The notes below the pieces were generated by a model that saw only the letters and a program-made list of their open reading frames with translations, did no database searches and was not told the origin of the DNA. A stretch of 64,000 nucleotides of DNA from Halorhabdus amylolytica (GTDB lineage Archaea > Halobacteriota > Halobacteria > Halobacteriales > Haloarculaceae): assembly GCF_004944975.1 (NCBI RefSeq), contig NZ_SPQG01000007.1:25360-89359 (forward strand), written 5' to 3'. The translations under genes and the position numbers were made by a program. Each line of letters begins with the position of its first letter. Positions within the stretch are counted from its first letter, which is position 1. Positions 6,255 to 35,333 of the stretch are shown here, piece after piece.

Positions 6255-6690
6255 TACCCATGACTGAAGTCAAGGGCTTTCCCCGTGGAGGTTTCCGCCC
6301 TCGCTCCATCAGCCGTCATGGGCGGGTTGCACGATGCCGTGATTCTTCCCGACCAAACTGTTCTGTTTGGTCTGGCGTACTCTCGCCGGGCTTTATCCGG
6401 CGAGGGCAGCTGGCGCCAACACACCGCTTTAATTCAGCGTGGACTCGGACGCTTCGCACCACCAGAACGGCGGTCGGAGCGGCGTCGTCAGCGTCCCGCT
6501 GTTTGGGGCCGGCCTACGGCAGCCCCTCCGAGGCGTCCATTTTGGCCGCCCCGGAATGTAGGGTAACATACGGCACAGAGCGGGGTAAATGTCCCGATAC
6601 CGAAACCGTCGCCGGCCAGAGCGCGGTGGCCGCCAGCGCATCCGACGCGCTTCCTCACGACTGAAGTCGTGGCCTTCCGCGCTACACAAC
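6255..6690. mobile_element. Probable decayed IS200/IS605 (TnpB-type) remnant
   Basis: This stretch lacks a convincing gene. It contains two similar motifs in the same orientation, actgaagtcaagggctttcc near 6263 and actgaagtcgtggccttccg near 6661. Each has the short palindrome GACTGAAGTC, a form common at the ends of haloarchaeal TnpB/IS1341-type elements. A frame ending at 6664 (CPDTETVAGQSAVAASASDA) resembles a TnpB tail, but no RuvC motif remains. I infer a deleted element with only its ends left. A transcribed guide-type RNA could in principle survive here, but the sequence does not show that. Confidence 0.4.
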
Positions 6691-25039: not shown

Positions 25040-25674
25040 CGCGCGTGAAGATCTGTGGGCACACGCGGATCGAGGACGTCCAGGCGACCGTCGACGCCGG
25101 GGCGGACGCCATCGGAGTTATCAGCGAGGTTCCCGTCGAAACGCCCCGAGAAGTCCCCCGTGAGCGCGCCGCCGACCTGTTCGATGCGGTCCCGCCACTC
25201 GTCTCGGGCGTCCTCGTGACGATGCCCGAGACAATCGAGGACGCCCGGGAACTCGTCGCGGCCACGGAGCCGGACACCGTCCAGGTCCACGGGACGCTCG
25301 ACCCCGATGAAGTCCAAGAGTTCACGGAGTCGATCCCCCAGTCGGTCCTGGTCGCACTGGATCACGATGCCGACCTGGGGGCGTACGCCGCGGCCGCCGA
25401 CGGGCTCGTGGTCGACTCGCTGGACGAGGCGGGCGGCGGCGGGACTGGTCGGACACACGACTGGGACCGAACAGCAGAAATCATCGAGACCCTTGGGGTT
25501 CCAGTCCTGCTGGCCGGCGGACTCACGCCCGAGAACGTGACCGATGCCGTCGAGACCGTTCGGCCCTTCGGCGTCGACACTGCAAGCGGCGTCGAGCGGG
25601 AGGGCGGGATCAAAGATACCCACGCAGTCACACAGTTCGTCGAGCGGGCCGACACCGATCAGGTGGTCGCATGA
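25036..25674 (+). CDS. trpF: Phosphoribosylanthranilate isomerase
   Basis: TrpF carries out the Amadori rearrangement of phosphoribosylanthranilate. The 212-residue TIM-barrel protein has the catalytic Cys in KICGHTR (usually KICG), the Asp in GLVVDSLDEAGGGGTG, and phosphate loops LLAGGLTPENV and FGVDTASGVE. It overlaps trpD and trpE by four bases each, so translational coupling is likely. The only departure from the usual family motif is His rather than Ile after KICG. Confidence 0.95.
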   Translation: MTRVKICGHTRIEDVQATVDAGADAIGVISEVPVETPREVPRERAADLFDAVPPLVSGVLVTMPETIEDARELVAATEPDTVQVHGTLDPDEVQEFTESIPQSVLVALDHDADLGAYAAAADGLVVDSLDEAGGGGTGRTHDWDRTAEIIETLGVPVLLAGGLTPENVTDAVETVRPFGVDTASGVEREGGIKDTHAVTQFVERADTDQVVA

Positions 25675-27368
25675 CTGGCGAGCCGTCGCTGTCCCGCGAG
25701 GAGTTCGTGGCTCACGCTGACGCCGAGGAGCCGGGTGTCGTCCGAGTTGCCGTCGAACTCGACGTCGACGTCGATCCACTCTTCGCGTACGCGGCGGTAA
25801 CCGGCCGGAAGAGCGACGCCGACGACGTTCACGCTGACGACACCGGCTACGCGTTCTTGCTCGAAAGCGCCGAGAAAGTCGCCTCCAGCGATCCGAACGG
25901 CGCGTTCGCACCCTCGACAGACGACCGCCACGCGCGATACTCCTTCGTCGGCTACGATCCCGTCGCGGTCGCGACCGTCGATCCCGACGAGACGGATCTG
26001 GACGTCTTCGACGACCGATACACCGATCTACTCGAAACCAACGGCGGCGATGTCCTCGACGACCTCCGGGCGACGCTGCCTGACGTCGAGCGTCGTGGAT
26101 TCCCGGACCACGACCGCCAAACACTCTCGGGTGGTCTCGTCGGCTTTCTGGCCTACGAGGCCGTCTACGATCTCTGGCTCGACGAAGTGGGCATCGATCG
26201 GCCGGACTCGCGATTCCCGGACGCTCAGTTCGTGCTCGCAACGAAGACGCTGGTGTTCGACCACGTCGATGAGACTGTCTCGCTTGTGTTCACTCCGGTC
26301 GTCAAACCCGGGGAAGACGCCCACGCGCGGTACGACGAGTTGCTCACAGAGGCTGAACGCGTCGAAACAGCACTGACCGACGCCGACGATCCCGAGACAG
26401 GCGGATTCGCCCTCGTTCGAGAGGATGCCGGGCCACAGGACGAGTACGAGCGGGCGGTCGAGCGCGCCAAGGAACACGTTCTGGACGGCGACATCTACCA
26501 GGGTGTAATCTCCCGGAAACGCGAGCTCTACGGCGACGTTGACCCACTCGCGCTGTACGACTCGCTGCGATCGATCAACCCCTCGCCGTACATGTACTTG
26601 CTGGGGTACGACGACCTGACGATCGTCGGCGCGAGCCCGGAGACGCTCGTCTCAGTAGGGGGCGACCTCATCACGTCGAACCCCATCGCTGGCACGTCTA
26701 CGCGGGGATCCAGCCCCGTCGAGGATCGCCGACTGGCGGGGGAGATGCTCGCCGACGAGAAGGAGCGAGCCGAGCACACGATGCTGGTCGATCTGGCACG
26801 CAACGACGTCCGCCGCGTGGCCGAACCGGGGAGTGTTCGCGTCGAAGAGTTCATGAACGTCCTGAAGTACAGCCACGTCCAGCACATCGAGTCGACAGTA
26901 ACGGGGACACTCGCCGAGGACAGAGCTGTCTCCGAACTACGTTCGGAGGCCCGAAAGAGCGCGTCTTTCGATGCTTTCGACGCGACGCGGGCGGCCTTCC
27001 CGGCGGGGACGCTCTCGGGTGCGCCGAAGATCCGCGCGATGGAGATTATCGACGACCTCGAAGTCGACCCCCGCGGAATCTACGGCGGCGGCGTGGGTTA
27101 CTTCTCCTGGAACGGCGACGCCGACTTCGCGATCGTCATCCGGTCGGCGGCGGTCGAACACGGTGTCGATATCGCCGACGCCCACGGCGGCAACGACCGA
27201 ATCACCGTCCAGGCGGGGGCGGGGATCGTCGCCGACAGCGATCCCGCAAGCGAGTACGAGGAGACCGAACAGAAGATGGGGGGCGTGATCGACGCCCTCG
27301 AACGGATCGAGTCGGATCCGGACGTCGAGGCCGACACTGAGGCCCCGATCGAGGAGGTGTCCCGATGA
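25671..27368 (+). CDS. trpE: Anthranilate synthase component I
   Basis: TrpE makes anthranilate from chorismate with ammonia supplied by TrpG. The 565-residue protein has the N-terminal LLES motif of the tryptophan feedback site (residues 63-66). Chorismate-enzyme motifs include IVGASPETLVSVGG, ITSNPIAGTSTRG, DLARNDVRRVAEPG and FPAGTLSGAPKIRAMEIID, then GGVGYFSWNGD and ITVQAGAGIVADSD. Feedback inhibition by tryptophan is therefore likely. It overlaps trpF by ATGA and the trpG start by four bases (ATGA at 27365). Confidence 0.96.
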   Translation: MTGEPSLSREEFVAHADAEEPGVVRVAVELDVDVDPLFAYAAVTGRKSDADDVHADDTGYAFLLESAEKVASSDPNGAFAPSTDDRHARYSFVGYDPVAVATVDPDETDLDVFDDRYTDLLETNGGDVLDDLRATLPDVERRGFPDHDRQTLSGGLVGFLAYEAVYDLWLDEVGIDRPDSRFPDAQFVLATKTLVFDHVDETVSLVFTPVVKPGEDAHARYDELLTEAERVETALTDADDPETGGFALVREDAGPQDEYERAVERAKEHVLDGDIYQGVISRKRELYGDVDPLALYDSLRSINPSPYMYLLGYDDLTIVGASPETLVSVGGDLITSNPIAGTSTRGSSPVEDRRLAGEMLADEKERAEHTMLVDLARNDVRRVAEPGSVRVEEFMNVLKYSHVQHIESTVTGTLAEDRAVSELRSEARKSASFDAFDATRAAFPAGTLSGAPKIRAMEIIDDLEVDPRGIYGGGVGYFSWNGDADFAIVIRSAAVEHGVDIADAHGGNDRITVQAGAGIVADSDPASEYEETEQKMGGVIDALERIESDPDVEADTEAPIEEVSR

Positions 27369-28048
27369 GCGAATCGATCAGTGCGGGTACGACTGAGACG
27401 GTTACCGGTGAACTCGACGTGCTGTTCGTGGACAACTTCGACTCGTTCACGTACAACCTCGTCGAATACACCGAAGTGGCGCTGAGCGCCACTTCGAGCC
27501 ACGCAGAATCCGTTGATTCTGCGGACGTCTCCGAACACGCGAGCACGACCGTCGTGAAGAACACGGCCTCGCTGTCGGATGTCCGGGCAGCCGATCCGGA
27601 CGCCATCATCATCAGTCCCGGGCCGGGTCACCCGAAGAACGACCGCGACGTCGGTGTGACGACGGACGTCCTCCGGGAGATCAGTCCCGGGGTGCCGACG
27701 CTGGGCGTCTGTCTCGGCCTCGAGGCCGCGGTCTACACCTACGGCGGGACGGTCGGCCACGCGCCGGAGCCGATCCACGGGAAGGCAGCCTCGATTTCCC
27801 ACGACGGCGAGGGCGTCTTCGACGGCCTCGACCAGGGATTCCAGGGCGGGCGATATCACTCGCTGGTCGCCAGTGACGTCCCGGACTGTTTCGAGGTGAC
27901 TGCGACCACCGAGGCCGACGACGGGACTGCGCTCGTCATGGGGATCCGTCACCGTGAGCACCCCATCGAAGCCGTCCAGTTCCACCCCGAATCCGTGTTG
28001 ACCGCCGTGGGCCACGACGTGATCCGGAACTTCCTATCAGGGGTCTGA
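27365..28048 (+). CDS. trpG: Anthranilate synthase component II (glutamine amidotransferase)
   Basis: TrpG releases ammonia from glutamine for TrpE. The 227-residue class I amidotransferase has VDNFDSFTYNLVEY at the start, IIISPGPGHPKN, the nucleophile Cys in LGVCLGLEA and the catalytic His-x-Glu in AVQFHPESV. Family members read directly from VEY to about VSEHAxTTVVKN; here about 19 extra residues (TEVALSATSSHAESVDSAD) are inserted, encoded by two hairpins. The catalytic residues are intact and the frame is open, so the protein is probably functional. The nucleophile region reads CLGLEA, where many amidotransferases have CLGHQ. It is the last gene of trpDFEG. Confidence 0.93.
   Translation: MSESISAGTTETVTGELDVLFVDNFDSFTYNLVEYTEVALSATSSHAESVDSADVSEHASTTVVKNTASLSDVRAADPDAIIISPGPGHPKNDRDVGVTTDVLREISPGVPTLGVCLGLEAAVYTYGGTVGHAPEPIHGKAASISHDGEGVFDGLDQGFQGGRYHSLVASDVPDCFEVTATTEADDGTALVMGIRHREHPIEAVQFHPESVLTAVGHDVIRNFLSGV
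27472..27523 (+). repeat. Two perfect hairpins inserted in frame in trpG
   Basis: The first hairpin (27472-27496) has an 11-bp perfect stem, cgaagtggcgc and gcgccacttcg, with loop tga. The second (27502-27523) has a 9-bp perfect stem, cgcagaatc and gattctgcg, with loop cgtt. Five bases separate them. Together they account for the extra residues in TrpG. The arrangement looks like a small palindromic mobile element that tolerates insertion in coding sequence. Confidence 0.75.
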
Positions 28049-28382: not shown

Positions 28383-28386
28383 ATGA
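28315..28386 (+). CDS. Possible 23-residue leader ORF overlapping nrdJ
   Basis: A short frame (MTRTDTRTTGRSDEQPSGRG then VEQ) begins with ATG at 28315 and ends in TGA at 28384-28386, overlapping the nrdJ ATG as ATGA. The overlap is the same type that links the trp genes, which makes coupled translation plausible. The peptide is basic and Thr-rich, with no recognised family, and could be a chance frame. Confidence 0.3.
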   Translation: MTRTDTRTTGRSDEQPSGRGVEQ

Positions 28387-31300
28387 GCGACGCCGACCTG
28401 GGCGTCGACGAGGTGACGCTGCCGATCAAGCGCACCGAGGGCGAGACGCTCACCGACCGGCTCACCGACAACGCCTATCACAACATTCTGCCGGCACGGT
28501 ACCTCCGGAAGGACGCCGACGGTGAACTCGTCGAGGATCAGGAGGACCTTTTCGAGCGCGTCGCAAAGAACATCGCCCTGGCCGAGGCCGTCTACGAAGC
28601 TCGAAACGAGGACGTCGAGATCACCGTCACGCCCGAGCAGCTCAAGCCCGATCATCCACGGCGCGACGAGCTCGCCGAGGAAGTATTCGGGAAGGGAACC
28701 ACGGTGACTGACGACGCCGAGACGACCCTCTCGATCTACAACGTCAACAAGTTCGCCTACGAGACGGTCGTGCCCGAACTCCCGCCGGCCGTCCGCGAGC
28801 ACGTCGAGGACACCGCCGCGGAGTTCCGGACGCTGATGGGAGATCTTTCTTTCATGCCGAACTCTCCTACATTAATGAATGCCGGCGACGAACTCCAGCA
28901 ACTATCTGCCTGTTTCGTCGATAGCCCCGAAGACGACATTGATGACATTCATCAGACAGCAAAAGAAGCCGCACAGGTTTTCCAGTGTCTGACAGAAGAC
29001 ACGACCGTTACCGTCGAGGGAAAAGGCGTCGTTTCCATCGCTGATGTCGAGCCCGGTGATCGGATCGTCCAGCGCGACGGCGACGATCATCGCGTCCAGA
29101 ATGTTGACGAGACCCACGCCTACGACGATTCACCGGTCAAGCGCGTCGAAACGAAGGCCGGTGTGGAACTGACGGGGACGCCGAACCACGAGCTGCTCGT
29201 TGGGGAGGACTGGACGCGCATCGACGAGATCGAACCCGGGGACGCGCTCTCGCTTCGACTCGGCTGGATCGACGGTGCGAACGAGACTCCCGAACTCACG
29301 ACCGTCGCCGGCGGTGCGCAGTGGGCCGAGAACCGTACTGTTTCGAACGACGACGTCCTCGAGCTGTATGCCGATGGACTCAGCGACTACGAAATCGCCG
29401 AGCGACTCGACAGTTCGGCCTCGACGATCCAGCGCCGGCGCTCGCTCGAACTCGGTCTGGATCCGAACGGCAGCGGCGGACGTCCCGGCGGGAGCGTGAG
29501 TTTCGACGAGAGCGAATTCGAGACGCTCTATGAGGACGGTCACTCCGACGGTGAGATCGCCCGGGAACTCGGCGTTTCGACCCGGAGCGTGGCCCGGTAC
29601 CGCGAGAACCAGTCGATCGAATCCAACGGTGAGGCCGTCACGGTCGTCGACCAACCGACCGAATTGACGCCGGACCTGGCCGAACTTGTCGGGATGTGGG
29701 TCGGCGACGGTTCGAAACACGAAGACGGGATCCGATTTCATCTCAATCGCGAGGAGACGCTCGAACGCGCCGATCGACTTGCCCGCGATCTCTTCGACGT
29801 CGGTCTCGACTGGCGCTGGGACGAAGGCTGTTACGACGCTGTCGTCCACAGCCACGAGGTCAAACGCTGGTGGCTTGCGAACTTCGGAGATGCCAAGCCC
29901 GACGCGACATCGGCATCCGTTCCGGAATCGGTCTGGAAGGCGGACCGCGAGACGATCGGTGCATTCCTCCGGGGACTGTACTCGACCGACGGCAGCCTCC
30001 AGAAAGACGTCTATCCACGGCTGTGGAGTTCCTCGGAGGATCTGATCGAGGGTGTCCAGCAGTTGCTTCTCGGTCTCGGCATCCCTGCAATCAACTGGGA
30101 GTACGATACCGAAGATCGTGATTACTTCAACGTCGGGCCGACCGGCGAACGCGGACTCGAACAGTTCAGCAATCTGGTCGGATTCGTCGACTCCCGGTCG
30201 GAGACGATGGCAGAGACGCTCGCCTCGATCGACTCGGAGGGGCCGAGCGTCGGCACGCTCGACGGTTCGACGTGGCACGTCCCCGTCGAAGCCGTCGAGG
30301 ACGCAGGAACGGCTACCGTCTACGACGTGACCGTCGCCGATAATCACGAGTACGTGGCAAGTTCGGTCGTCTCGCACAACAGCGGTGGCGGAATGGGCTA
30401 TGCATTCTGGCGATTACGGCCCTATGGAGATGCTGTCGGCTCGACGGGAGGAATTGCTTCTGGTCCGATTACGTTCATGCGGACTTTCGACCAGATGTGT
30501 GAGACGATTGCCCAGGGTGGTGCCCGACGGGGTGCCCAGATGGGGGTCATGCGGATCTCCCATCCGGACGCCATCCAGTTCATCCACGCCAAGAACAAGG
30601 ACGTCTCCCTCGCTCATACCCTTCGGCTGAACGACCCTGATGACTTCACGCACACCTCTTTTGCCGACGCCTTAGAGGAAGCACGAGAGTTGATCGACGA
30701 CGAGGGTCGTGTGCCCGAACACCTCCGCAACGCCGTCGAGGGGCATCTCTCGAATTTCAACATCTCAGTGGGTGTCACCGACGACTTTATGGAGGCCCTG
30801 CAGAACGGCGAGGAGTTCACCTTCACGAACCCCCGAACCGGCGAGGCTCACATCGTCACCGAGGAAACCAAAGAACTGTACGACATGTTCGGCCTCGGCG
30901 AGTACGTCACGGTCGGCGAGGAGCTGTCCGTGCCCGCCGAGGAACTCTGGGACGACATCGTCGAAGGTGCCCACGAGAACGGCGAACCCGGCGTGATCTA
31001 TCTAGAGCGCGTCAACAAGGAACACTCCTTCGACGTCGAGGCCGAACCTGACCACCAGATCCTCGCGACCAACCCGTGTGTCACCGGTGACACGCTCATC
31101 AGTACCGAAAACGGGCTCGTCCCGGCCGAAGAACTGTACGAGCACGGTGTCGCACAGGATGTCGTCGTCGACGGTCGGTTGAGCGAGGATCGAGTCAAGG
31201 AGGCCAGTAGCGTCTTCAAGACCGGCGAGAAGGACGTCTACGAACTCACAACCGAGGAAGGATACGAACTCCGACTCACTGCTGACCATCGCGTGATGAC

Positions 31301-34300
31301 CGACGATGGCTGGATCGAAGCGCAGAACCTCGAACCCGGAGATACTGTTCACGTCCAAAACCAGAAGGGCGAGTTCGGTCAACACGGGTCGGCCGAAGAG
31401 GGTCGCGTCCTCGGCTGGCTCGTCGGTGACGGCCATCTCAAGCACGGCGAGGAACGTGCAGTACTGAACTTCTACGACGAAGATGCGACCGTTTCCGAGC
31501 AGTTCGCCGACGACGTGAACGAGATCGTTCGCGAACCACTCGGAAACGCCGACTACGAGGTCGGCGTCAGCGACATCAGTCGGAGTGACGACTATCGAGG
31601 TGCCCAGGCACTCGAACAGCGCATTCGGTCGGCACGTCTCTACGAGTACGCCGAGGAGACTGGACTTATCGAGGAGAAACTGCAGGTTCCGGACGCCGTC
31701 ATGCGTGGCAGTGAAGAGATGGCTCGTGGATTCCTGCGAGCACTGTTCAGTGCCGACGGGAGCGTACAGGGCGACGTCGAGAAGGGGGTCTCCGTGCGAC
31801 TGGCGAGCGTCGACGCCGGTTTCCTCACAGACGTGCAGCGATTGCTTCTCAACTTCGGCATCGCCAGCAAAGTCTACGAGGACCGGAAAGAGCCGGGGAC
31901 AGTCGAACTACCCGACGGTACCGGCGACACAGCCGAGTACGAGACTGAAGGGTTCCATGAACTCGTTGTCGTCAAGGACAACCTCGTTCGCTTCGCCGAG
32001 GAGGTCGGATTCCTGCTGGACAGCAAAGACGAGACCCTTGCGGAGCGACTCGCAGAGTACGACCGGGGCCCGTACAGCGAGCGCTTCGAGGCGACGGTCG
32101 AATCAGTCGAGTTCGACGGACACGAAGCCGTCTACGACCTGACGGAGCCGGACACGCACTCGTTCATCGCGAACGGGCTCGTCTGTCACAACTGTGGTGA
32201 GCAACCCTTGGAGGAGTACGAGGCCTGTAACCTCGGGCACATCAATCTCTCGACGGTCGCCGACACGGACGCGCCGGACTGGCGCGTCTGGTCTGACCGC
32301 CACGCTGAGGACTATGCGGACTTCGAGGATGCGATCGATGCCTACCTCGAAGAAGCGATCGACTTCGAGGAACTCGACCATCGTATCGCGATGGGGACGC
32401 GGTTCCTCGAAAACGTCGTCACGATGTCGGATTTCCCGGTCGACGAGATCGAGGAGAAAGTCCGGCACATGCGCAAGATCGGGCTGGGCATCATGGGCCT
32501 GGCGCAGCTGTACATCCAGCTCGGCGTCAAATACGGCAGCGAGGAGGCCGACGAGATCGCTCGGCAGGTCATGCAGCACATCAACTACGAGTCCAAATGG
32601 ACGAGTCACGAGCTCGCCGAGGAACGCGGCTCCTTCGCGGAGTGGGACGATTCGAAGTACGCCGATCCCACGGAATATAGCGAGTGGTTCGAGCATTACG
32701 TCGGCGAGGATGCAGAGGACTGGGCAGATGGCTTCCCCATCCGCAACCACAACACGACGACGATCGCTCCCACTGGCTGCGTGGAGGAGAGTTCCCTCAT
32801 CTCGACTGACGAGGGGCTCGTCCCGATCGAGGACCTTGACGAGACGACTGCGGAGTTCCAGCAGTGGGACGAGATTGACGTCGGTGTTGCGACCGATGGC
32901 GGCACGAAAGCTGCGACCGCCATTTATGACAATGGGTTCACATATGTCCGGAAAATCGAAACCGAGGGCGGATTTAGCGTTGCTTCGACGCCGGACCATC
33001 GGTTCAGAACACTCACCGAAGATGGCGAGTACGCATGGAAAGAGGCCGGCGAGTTCGAACCTGGCGACAGGATTTTGCTTCAACGGAACACCTTCGAAGG
33101 CGGAACCAGGGCCACACTGGACACGAGCGAACGGGACAACTACCATCACAACACGGACGACGATCTGACGCTCCCGGAGGAGATGACGCCGGAACTGTCC
33201 GAGTTCCTCGGATACTTCATGGGCGACGGCTACGTTCACGACGAGGTTGGAGTGAAAGTCGTCGTCGAGTCCGACGCGACAGAGCTCGATGAACATCTTC
33301 GCGAACTCGGTCGGTCCCTGTTCGGAGTCGCTCCGACTGTCGAGGACCAGGATACCCGGCACACGCTCACGTTTGGGGGCCGACACCTGTCGCGATATTT
33401 CGAGGACAACGGCTGGAAGAAGGCACCGGGCAATGAAGGGCAAGGGGCTGCAAGCGCCTTCGTCCCGGACGAGGTCCTCAGCGGTGACGAACCGGTCGCG
33501 AAAGCGTTCCTCAGAGGTCTATTCGAGGCTGATGGGACTGCATCGCGGAAGGTCGAGCTGTCAACGGTGTCAGCGACGCTCGCCGAAGAAGTCCAGACGC
33601 TACTGTTGTCGCTTGGCTGTGTCTTCGTCCAGGACGTGCTCGAAACCGAAGACATGGACGACCACTACGGAGACCGGCCGCGACACAGCGTGCGTGGAGC
33701 CAACAGGCGCGAAGACGCACGATTTATCGACGAGATTGGATTTATCACCAAGTCCACGGAGTTCGATCTCGGGCCACAGTCGTACAAGAACGACACGTAC
33801 CCACCGGAGATAGTCGAAACGCTTCGGGCCGTCGACGGATACGATTCGGTGAGCAAGCCGGTCAAGAAACGAGTCAATCAGTCTCCGATTAACGGGGCTG
33901 TGAGTCGAAAACTCGTCAAAGACGTCGAGACCGAGACCGACCAGGTCGTCAGGGTCGCCGGTCGTCGTCTCACCGATTTCTATGCAGCGACGGTCGGGTC
34001 CGTCACCGAAGAGAAAGCCTACACCAAAGACATCAGTGTCCCATCGAACAACACGTACGTCGCCAATGGATTCGTTACCCACAACACCACCTCGATGGTC
34101 GGGAATACGACAGGAGGTTGCGAGCCCGTCTACAACGTCGCGTACTACAAGAACGTCTCCGACGACGTCCAGGGCGACGAAATGCTCGTTGAGTTCGACG
34201 ATTACTTCCTTCGGGTCTTAGAGGAGAACGACATCGACGTCGAGGCCGTCAAGCGGGAGGCCCAGGAACAGATGGCCGACAACGCCTTCGACGGCGTCGA

Positions 34301-35333
34301 AGGGCTCTCGACGGTGCCCGACGCCATCGGCGAACTGTTCGTCACGACCGGCGATCTCTCGCCGAAACAGCATGCCTCGATCCAGTGTGCCCTGCAAGAC
34401 GGCGTGGACTCGGCAATTTCAAAAACCGTCAACGCCCCCAACGATTCGACGCTCGGGGACGCAAAAGATGTCTTCGAGTACATCTACGAACACGGTGGCA
34501 AGGGCGTCACCTACTACCGCGACGGCACCCGGAGCAAGCAGGTGCTGACCACGCGGGCCGAGAACACCGACTTCGCGGACATGGACGAGGACGAGGCCGC
34601 CGAGACGATCGTCGAGCGCATCGACGAGGTCTTCGGCGGGCTGGAGGGGTTCCTCGACAACGAGGACGTTCGCGAGCGACTCACGGCCGACATCGAGGAG
34701 CTACTGGACGGGGACACCGCCCGGCAGTACGCCGAGAAGAAACCCCGCCCCGATCAGCTTCACGGCGTCACCCAGCGTATCGAGACGGGCTACGGCAAAC
34801 TGTACGTGACGATCAACGAGGACCCCAAGACCGGCGAACCGTTCGAGCTGTTCGCCAACACGGGTCATTCGGGCGGGTTCACCAACTCATTCACCGATGC
34901 GCTCGCGAAGACCATCTCCGTCGCGTTGCGCTCGGGGGTCGATCCCGACGAGATCGTCGACAAGCTCCAGGGCATTCGGTCGCCGAAGGTCGCCTGGGAC
35001 AAGGGCGAGCAGATCAACTCCATCCCGGACGCCTTCGGAACGGCTCTGCGGCGGTATCTCGACGACGAGATCGACCGGACCTATCCCCAGCAGCGCACCT
35101 TAGAGGAGACAGCTGACGAAGATCTCACTGCGGAAGAACAGGCTGCCCGGTCACGTTCGGAGGACCGATCGACCGACGGCGGTTCGACCGCCACGGAGTC
35201 GACCATGGTTGACGATCAACAGGACATCATCGCCAACGGTGAGAGTCCCGAATGTCCCGAATGTGGCTCGATGTCGCTGTACTACTCTGAGGGCTGTAAG
35301 ACCTGCGAGTCCTGTGGCTGGTCGGAATGTTGA
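28383..35333 (+). CDS. nrdJ: Class II ribonucleotide reductase with three inteins
   Basis: NrdJ reduces ribonucleotides to deoxyribonucleotides using adenosylcobalamin. The precursor is 2,316 residues; removing inteins of 465, 372 and 436 leaves an enzyme of 1,043. Extein motifs include [12 protein letters not shown], the redox Cys in [13 protein letters not shown], the active-site [20 protein letters not shown], and [20 protein letters not shown]. A C-terminal zinc ribbon ([22 protein letters not shown]) follows. Intein 2 separates P and C within NPCGE and intein 3 interrupts APTGT, so no activity is possible before splicing. Each insertion site is at a conserved catalytic sequence. It may be translationally coupled to a leader ORF. 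Confidence 0.96.
   Translation: [2316 protein letters not shown]
28986..30380 (+). other. Intein 1 of NrdJ (465 residues, LAGLIDADG, with HTH motifs)
   Basis: It starts at Cys202 ([20 protein letters not shown]) and ends SSVVSHN before Ser667. Splicing block B is [13 protein letters not shown] and block F is [15 protein letters not shown]. Two [9 protein letters not shown]-type motifs, [13 protein letters not shown] and [13 protein letters not shown], indicate a homing endonuclease. Between block B and the endonuclease are two extra segments like resolvase helix-turn-helix motifs, [20 protein letters not shown] and [20 protein letters not shown]. These may add DNA recognition. Key Cys, His and Asn are intact. 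Confidence 0.92.
31077..32192 (+). other. Intein 2 of NrdJ (372 residues, inside the NPCGE active-site motif)
   Basis: It starts at Cys899 ([20 protein letters not shown]) and ends ANGLVCHN before Cys1271. Block B is [17 protein letters not shown] and block F is [25 protein letters not shown]-type motifs are [11 protein letters not shown] and [12 protein letters not shown]. The upstream extein ends ATNP and the downstream one begins CGEQPL, so the intein sits between Pro and the active-site Cys. All splicing residues are present. Confidence 0.92.
32778..34085 (+). other. Intein 3 of NrdJ (436 residues, inside APTG-TTS)
   Basis: It starts at Cys1466 ([20 protein letters not shown]) and ends ANGFVTHN before Thr1902. 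Block B is [14 protein letters not shown] and block F includes [23 protein letters not shown]-type motifs are [15 protein letters not shown] and [14 protein letters not shown], so the endonuclease looks intact. The downstream residue is Thr rather than Ser or Cys, which is allowed. The region between the endonuclease and block F is longer than in intein 2. Confidence 0.92.

Follow-up and report, generated by a model that had tools for sequence, protein, structure and literature searches.

The window, a stretch of 64,000 nucleotides of Halorhabdus amylolytica DNA, carries the genes for both components of anthranilate synthase on its forward strand, trpE (component I, positions 25671-27368) and trpG (component II, positions 27365-28048), and each of the two genes bears an insert. 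The trpG open reading frame is unbroken and encodes 227 amino acid residues, and the protein matches NF041322, the NCBIfam model of haloarchaeal anthranilate synthase component II, with 341.9 bits against a cut-off of 320. Within this gene, positions 27469-27525 of the forward strand hold an in-frame insert of 57 nt that encodes 19 residues, TEVALSATSSHAESVDSAD, between LVEY and VSEH. The ribonucleotide reductase gene beside trpG (window positions 28383-35333) encodes 2316 residues and contains three inteins, as seen from three intein-splicing and three LAGLIDADG matches.

The trpG insert contains two perfect hairpins, both given here on the forward strand. Hairpin 1 (positions 27472-27496) has an 11-bp stem and the loop TGA (CGAAGTGGCGC-TGA-GCGCCACTTCG), hairpin 2 (positions 27502-27523) has a 9-bp stem and the loop CGTT (CGCAGAATC-CGTT-GATTCTGCG), and the linker AGCCA (positions 27497-27501) joins them. 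The native trpG sequence directly 3' of the insert, GTCTCCGAACAC (forward strand, positions 27526-27537), encodes VSEH, and its first ten bases are the left end that is common to many copies of the family described below (GTCTCCGAAC). These data confirm the coordinates, stems and frame given in an earlier note on this DNA, which had reported hairpins of 11 bp and 9 bp, five bases apart, adding about 19 in-frame residues between LVEY and VSEH. When a pair is defined by stems of 9 bp or more, loops of 3-4 nt and a gap of at most 8 nt, the trpG pair is the only one in 464 kb of the H. amylolytica genome, and no such pair is found in 18.6 Mb of triplet-shuffled sequence, which excludes a chance origin. 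The genome comprises 3.46 Mb in 26 contigs, and our genome-wide statements rest on searches together with this 464-kb sample. A repeat search of the genome found no second copy of the trpG stem sequences, a like search with the trpE sequence was also negative, and the core of trpG hairpin 2 is present in 4 of 292 genomes of the class. A classical, sequence-conserved repeat was therefore ruled out for the trpG and trpE inserts.

Comparison of trpG with its close relatives shows that the insert is missing from all six Halorhabdus congeners, in which LVEY runs directly into VSEH, TSEH or a near variant (for example, ...GTCGAGTAC GTGTCCGAACAC...). Longer TrpG loops do occur at the same site in Halorubrum, Halonotius, Halohasta, Halorubellus and one MAG (L102, L112, L120-L123, L130). 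Their residues are unrelated to those of the insert and they lack a hairpin pair, indicating that the site tolerates changes in length. The claim that other TrpG proteins have no extra residues here thus holds for the congeners and is too broad for a few other haloarchaea. The same residues encoded by unrelated DNA in many haloarchaeal TrpG proteins, which would have pointed to an ancestral loop, were looked for and not found.

Gain of the trpE insert

The trpE insert, which the earlier note missed, bears most of the evidence. It lies 540 bp upstream of the trpG insert, at positions 26925-26969 of the forward strand, and consists of 45 nt in frame, AVSELRSEARKSASF, that are absent from six of six congeners. 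Its first hairpin (forward strand, positions 26930-26948) has an 8-bp stem and a 3-nt loop (CTCCGAAC-TAC-GTTCGGAG), its second (forward strand, positions 26952-26970) has a 7-bp stem and a 5-nt loop (CGAAAGA-GCGCG-TCTTTCG), and the linker between them is GCC. Among the congeners, the TrpE of Halorhabdus salina (L055) is identical to that of congener G002. Comparison of 84 non-overlapping ortholog pairs with congener G004 (28,322 aligned residues) revealed 15 indels of 8-60 residues; only those in trpE and trpG are bordered on each side by 12 residues with 10 or more identities, and in both cases the gained side is that of H. amylolytica. None of the other 13 indels of 8-60 residues against G004 contains a hairpin pair.

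An insert is present at the identical site in nine of 80 TrpE rows, including those of eight other haloarchaea, and measures 45 nt in eight of the nine and 48 nt in Halostella. Seventy rows have exactly the empty length, and in the remaining row, a MAG (L089), the loop is longer and unrelated. In a maximum-likelihood tree of 79 TrpE rows, computed with the insert left out, the presence of the insert needs eight changes, all of which are forced by well-supported branches. The two trpE stems also covary: 90% of cells are paired, against 78% after shuffling and 30-44% in slid controls, and double changes are seen at 9 of 16 pairs, with pairing lost in some copies (Halapricum, Halorientalis). Taken together, the forced changes and the covariation indicate that the trpE insert was repeatedly gained (or cleanly lost, or exchanged) and that its pairing outlives its sequence.

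An ancestral loop that was lost in most lineages would place the insert at one site in several families and give related peptides, as is observed in TrpE. However, the carriers (nine of 79 rows) sit at the tips of the tree and force the eight changes, H. amylolytica is the only bearer of the trpE insert within Halorhabdus and is nested among empty congeners, and losses would need to have brought the segment back to precisely 17 residues in 70 of 80 rows. We consider this explanation extremely unlikely.

Paired-hairpin inserts in other haloarchaeal genes

The earlier note had proposed a search for paired hairpins in other genes, and such hairpins are found in frame in about 18 further conserved genes. 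The covariance model R1, built from nine copies in trpE, three in the C-terminal linker of ribonucleotide reductase and one between genes, matches 70 of the 116 genomes of the taxonomic family at E <= 0.02, with up to nine matches per genome. R1 also found the copies in histidine kinases, in which the peptide VEHGSTSSRTQSDDAVEHG is repeated one to several times. In these kinases (L157-L186, L300), which are by far the commonest host gene seen, one to several tandem inserts lie at the N-box (VEHGST...DAVEHG). Reading of 49 loci from the family search gave in-frame copies in trpA, nadB, folD, birA, pheA, mre11, ribE and kae1, as well as in genes for a MerA-like reductase, an aldehyde ferredoxin oxidoreductase, an aldo/keto reductase, a DEAD helicase, an S9 peptidase, a photolyase-related protein and one more conserved protein. 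Ten of these hosts are named by NCBIfam (TrpA, BirA, MerA-like, FolD, NadB, Mre11, RibE, Kae1, PheA and aldehyde ferredoxin oxidoreductase); the aldo/keto reductase and the last conserved protein were identified from sequence. Besides its paired-hairpin insert, the NadB of one haloarchaeon (L263) has a second extra segment, VSSSEARRRSEELRSSG.

In every case with a clear host gene, the coding copies in these approximately 18 different genes lie on one strand and in one frame, which encodes V[AS]E-x-x-S-x-x-[RS]-[QE]-T-[QE]-S-[DPG]-[DG]. At the FolD, TrpA and PheA copies the longest open reading frame is in another frame, and protein alignments still give the common one. Across 56 distinct copies, 96.1% of pairs are standard, against 72.3% after shuffling and 30-42% in slid controls, and double changes occur at 15 of 16 pairs; since this alignment was fitted to the structure, these covariation counts are biased towards it. 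In the hairpin-1 arms of the histidine kinases, the synonymous third positions of Val and Ser match in 34 of 39 cases and those of Glu and Gly in 35 of 39, where 19 would be expected for each and the maxima among 5000 shuffles are 29 and 31. This matching of synonymous third bases indicates pairing at the level of the nucleic acid, which selection on the protein cannot explain.

Compensatory change of this kind, which affects both stems in several families and includes synonymous positions, would also be expected of a functional mRNA structure, that is, of a hairpin pair kept by selection for regulating translation, folding or mRNA decay. Against such a function stand the scattered presence of the insert (eight changes on the TrpE tree, four of 30 TrpA proteins and none of six congeners), the functionally unrelated host genes, the lack of a match between the inserts and any family in Rfam 15, and the trpE copies of Halapricum and Halorientalis that have lost pairing. 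We therefore regard a conserved mRNA function as a highly doubtful explanation.

Hairpins of this kind are also seen between genes. An intergenic array in another haloarchaeon (L188, positions 1471-1682) contains at least seven different perfect hairpins, each with a 9-bp stem, a 3-nt loop and its own sequence. One hairpin, TCAGAACGC-GAA-GCGTTCTGA, is identical in a histidine kinase insert (L162, approximately 1637-1680) and in this array (L188, 1634-1682), which links the coding and the intergenic hairpins. A different intergenic hairpin pair, conserved in several Halorhabdus genomes (L141, L146, L149, L156), reads, for example, GTGCAGGCT-CAC-AGCCTGCAC GT CGTCAGAC-GTA-GTCTGACG GAACCCTCAACG and is possibly a terminator or a small RNA. 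The MutS of H. amylolytica has a hairpin-bearing loop, DGEPRSPSSSGSSSR (L037, 285-329). We left this loop out of the family as ambiguous, since three congeners have similarly long loops that lack such a pair and three have short ones.

The two inserts of the window fit this family to different degrees. The trpE insert scores 43.9 bits (E = 6e-7) against the broad covariance model in a search of the window and is clearly a member. The trpG insert scores 15.2 bits (E = 0.002) against the family models in a targeted 401-base search and 12.9 bits (E = 0.74) over the window, in which it ranks 11th by the broad model. With its second hairpin, AATC-CGTT-GATT, and its 57 nt, it lacks the GAC-NNN-GTC core and the 45-nt length of the main subfamily, and it shows no clear duplication of its target, the best flank score being 9 of 18. 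On the other hand, it is a clean in-frame gain of two perfect hairpins (11-bp stem with 3-nt loop and 9-bp stem with 4-nt loop) whose 5-nt linker falls within the 2-8 nt of the family, and it has the phase and the downstream GTCTCCGAAC of the other copies. In the intergenic array of L188, one hairpin has the 9-bp stem of trpG hairpin 2 with GAC after it. Second hairpins also vary among the histidine kinase copies, with an 11-bp stem and 4-nt loop in L161 and a 9-bp stem and 3-nt loop in L162, indicating that this part of the family is variable. We conclude that the trpG insert is probably a divergent, longer member. The earlier reading of a small palindromic element adapted to coding DNA accordingly stands for the class, whose architecture recurs in frame in the other genes; for trpG itself it is weakened by the unrepeated stems, the rarity of the core in the class and the low model scores.

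Target duplication and the origin of the inserts

The structure of filled sites is clearest in TrpA, where the insert is present in four of 30 proteins. The empty site reads VGSALVDIVAEGHENGD and the filled site VGSALVDI[VAEGASAGSQTGSGD]VAEGHENGD, a gain of 45 nt, and the filled DNA is ATC[GTTGCCGAAG-gag-CTTCGGCA-ggca-GCCAGAC-ggg-GTCTGGC-gac]GTCGCCGAGGGC. Here the target is duplicated, and the target copy together with its own inverted copy forms hairpin 1. Similar target duplications are found in BirA (DVLVP...DVLVP), in histidine kinases and in ribonucleotide reductase. As a general rule, similarity of the flanks is weak: over 21 genes the summed score is 207, against 195.3 when permuted, and 105 of 5000 permutations reach as high a sum. 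The DEAD helicase gene offers a filled and an empty site within Halorhabdus, in G006 and G004, respectively.

In a typical member of 45 nt, the target copy and, 3-4 bases later, its inverted copy form hairpin 1; the linker, GCA, GGCA or GCC, leads to the second hairpin, commonly xGTCAGAC-NNN-GTCTGACx, after which come GAC and the target once more. The stem letters change among copies while pairing is kept. Copies would presumably spread between genes, hairpin 1 may be built from the target through a fold-back or single-stranded step, and selection may keep only the frame that gives a hydrophilic surface loop rich in Ser, Thr, Gln and Asp.

Local events might also produce such structures. Template switching during replication at a quasi-palindrome in trpG could have duplicated and inverted nearby bases and so made perfect hairpins in place with no mobile element, which would suit the lack of any other copy of the trpG stems in the genome, the weak family-model scores of trpG, the occurrence of CCGAA on both sides of its insert and the hairpin 1 of TrpA, the histidine kinases and BirA, which is built from the target copy itself. 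It leaves unexplained, however, why a second hairpin whose core is common to the copies follows in about 18 unrelated genes, always on one strand and in one frame, and why a second gain, clearly of the shared family, lies 540 bp away in trpE. We thus judge a purely local origin unlikely.

On balance, we favor the reading that the H. amylolytica lineage gained the trpG insert, a short pair of hairpins, in frame and that this insert is part of a haloarchaea-wide class. The inserts are gained, their stems pair and covary, they keep to one strand and one frame, and they recur in many unrelated genes; they are best explained by recurrent in-frame palindromic insertion, probably of a mobile kind. 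The analysis turned up neither a transposase nor a donor for the inserts, nor any transposition event within a single strain lineage. A bolder and more tentative proposal, to which we give some but not great weight, is a new mode of transposition or copy-repair: an insertion process that would make hairpin 1 from the target, add a second hairpin and deliver 45-57 nt in one strand and frame into essential genes, with the stem sequence set by the target and not by the element.

The presence of such small inserts across haloarchaea, in one fixed frame in trpE, trpA, nadB, folD, mre11, birA, kae1 and numerous histidine kinases, suggests that archaeal enzymes routinely acquire surface loops through DNA insertion. 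That the stem letters track the target in some genes gives a handle on a mechanism of insertion or copying outside the current classes of mobile elements, and haloarchaeal genetic systems make paired-hairpin insertion testable.

Comparison with known palindromic elements

We found no description of in-frame palindromes in haloarchaeal genes, or of their peptide motifs, in the literature searched, most subscription papers being outside it, and paired-hairpin in-frame insertions in haloarchaeal genes appear to be a previously undescribed class. PATEs are short haloarchaeal palindromic elements that have no transposase gene, measure approximately 52 bp at their smallest and have ends in common with IS605-type transposons (PMC3119063). 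The inserts resemble them in being short and palindromic and in lacking a transposase gene; they differ in their variable stems and in the duplicated targets of TrpA and others, and the PATE study describes no in-frame coding inserts (PMC3119063). We considered whether the inserts are themselves terminal-only remnants of IS200/IS605 elements that were moved as single-stranded DNA by a hairpin-recognizing TnpA. Haloquadratum has PATEs as short as 52 bp with near-terminal palindromes (PMC3119063), the H. amylolytica genome contains two Y1 transposase genes, and several tnpA genes of its genus are flanked by hairpins. Yet PATEs have no target duplication and keep a recognizable palindrome, of which the 52-bp forms hold one (PMC3119063), whereas targets are duplicated in several insert-bearing genes and the stem letters of the inserts change freely. 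We discounted the tnpA-flanking hairpins as a link to IS200/IS605, because similar hairpins at the ends of other genes make them unspecific. An origin as PATEs is therefore very unlikely. In the window, a hairpin pair at positions 6351-6404 lies in the apparent end of an IS200/IS605-type element.

REP sequences and BIMEs or REPINs are dispersed palindromes of 20-40 bp that are often paired (PMC3733652, PMC12306157). REPs are extragenic and have a common consensus (PMC12306157), often with a GTAG or CGTC tag, whereas the haloarchaeal copies studied here are intragenic and variable in their stems. MITEs are small non-autonomous insertions that can be joined in frame to genes and in some cases have target duplications (PMC10969869). 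They keep terminal inverted repeats that match a transposon; none is visible in the 57-nt trpG insert, and the genome contains no second copy of this region.

Rickettsia and Wolbachia provide the best-known examples of in-frame palindromic elements within essential genes, and the haloarchaeal version is far smaller. Rickettsia palindromic elements place palindromic DNA in frame in many unrelated conserved genes and encode a similar peptide each time; they measure 100-150 bp and are recognized as sequence-similar repeats in Rickettsia and Wolbachia (PMC10969869, PMC3767692). Like them, the haloarchaeal inserts enter conserved genes in frame with a similar peptide. Unlike them, they measure 45-57 nt, consist of two hairpins with no conserved stem sequence and are accompanied by target duplication in some genes. 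The haloarchaeal family operates as the Rickettsia elements do, yet it does not belong to them.
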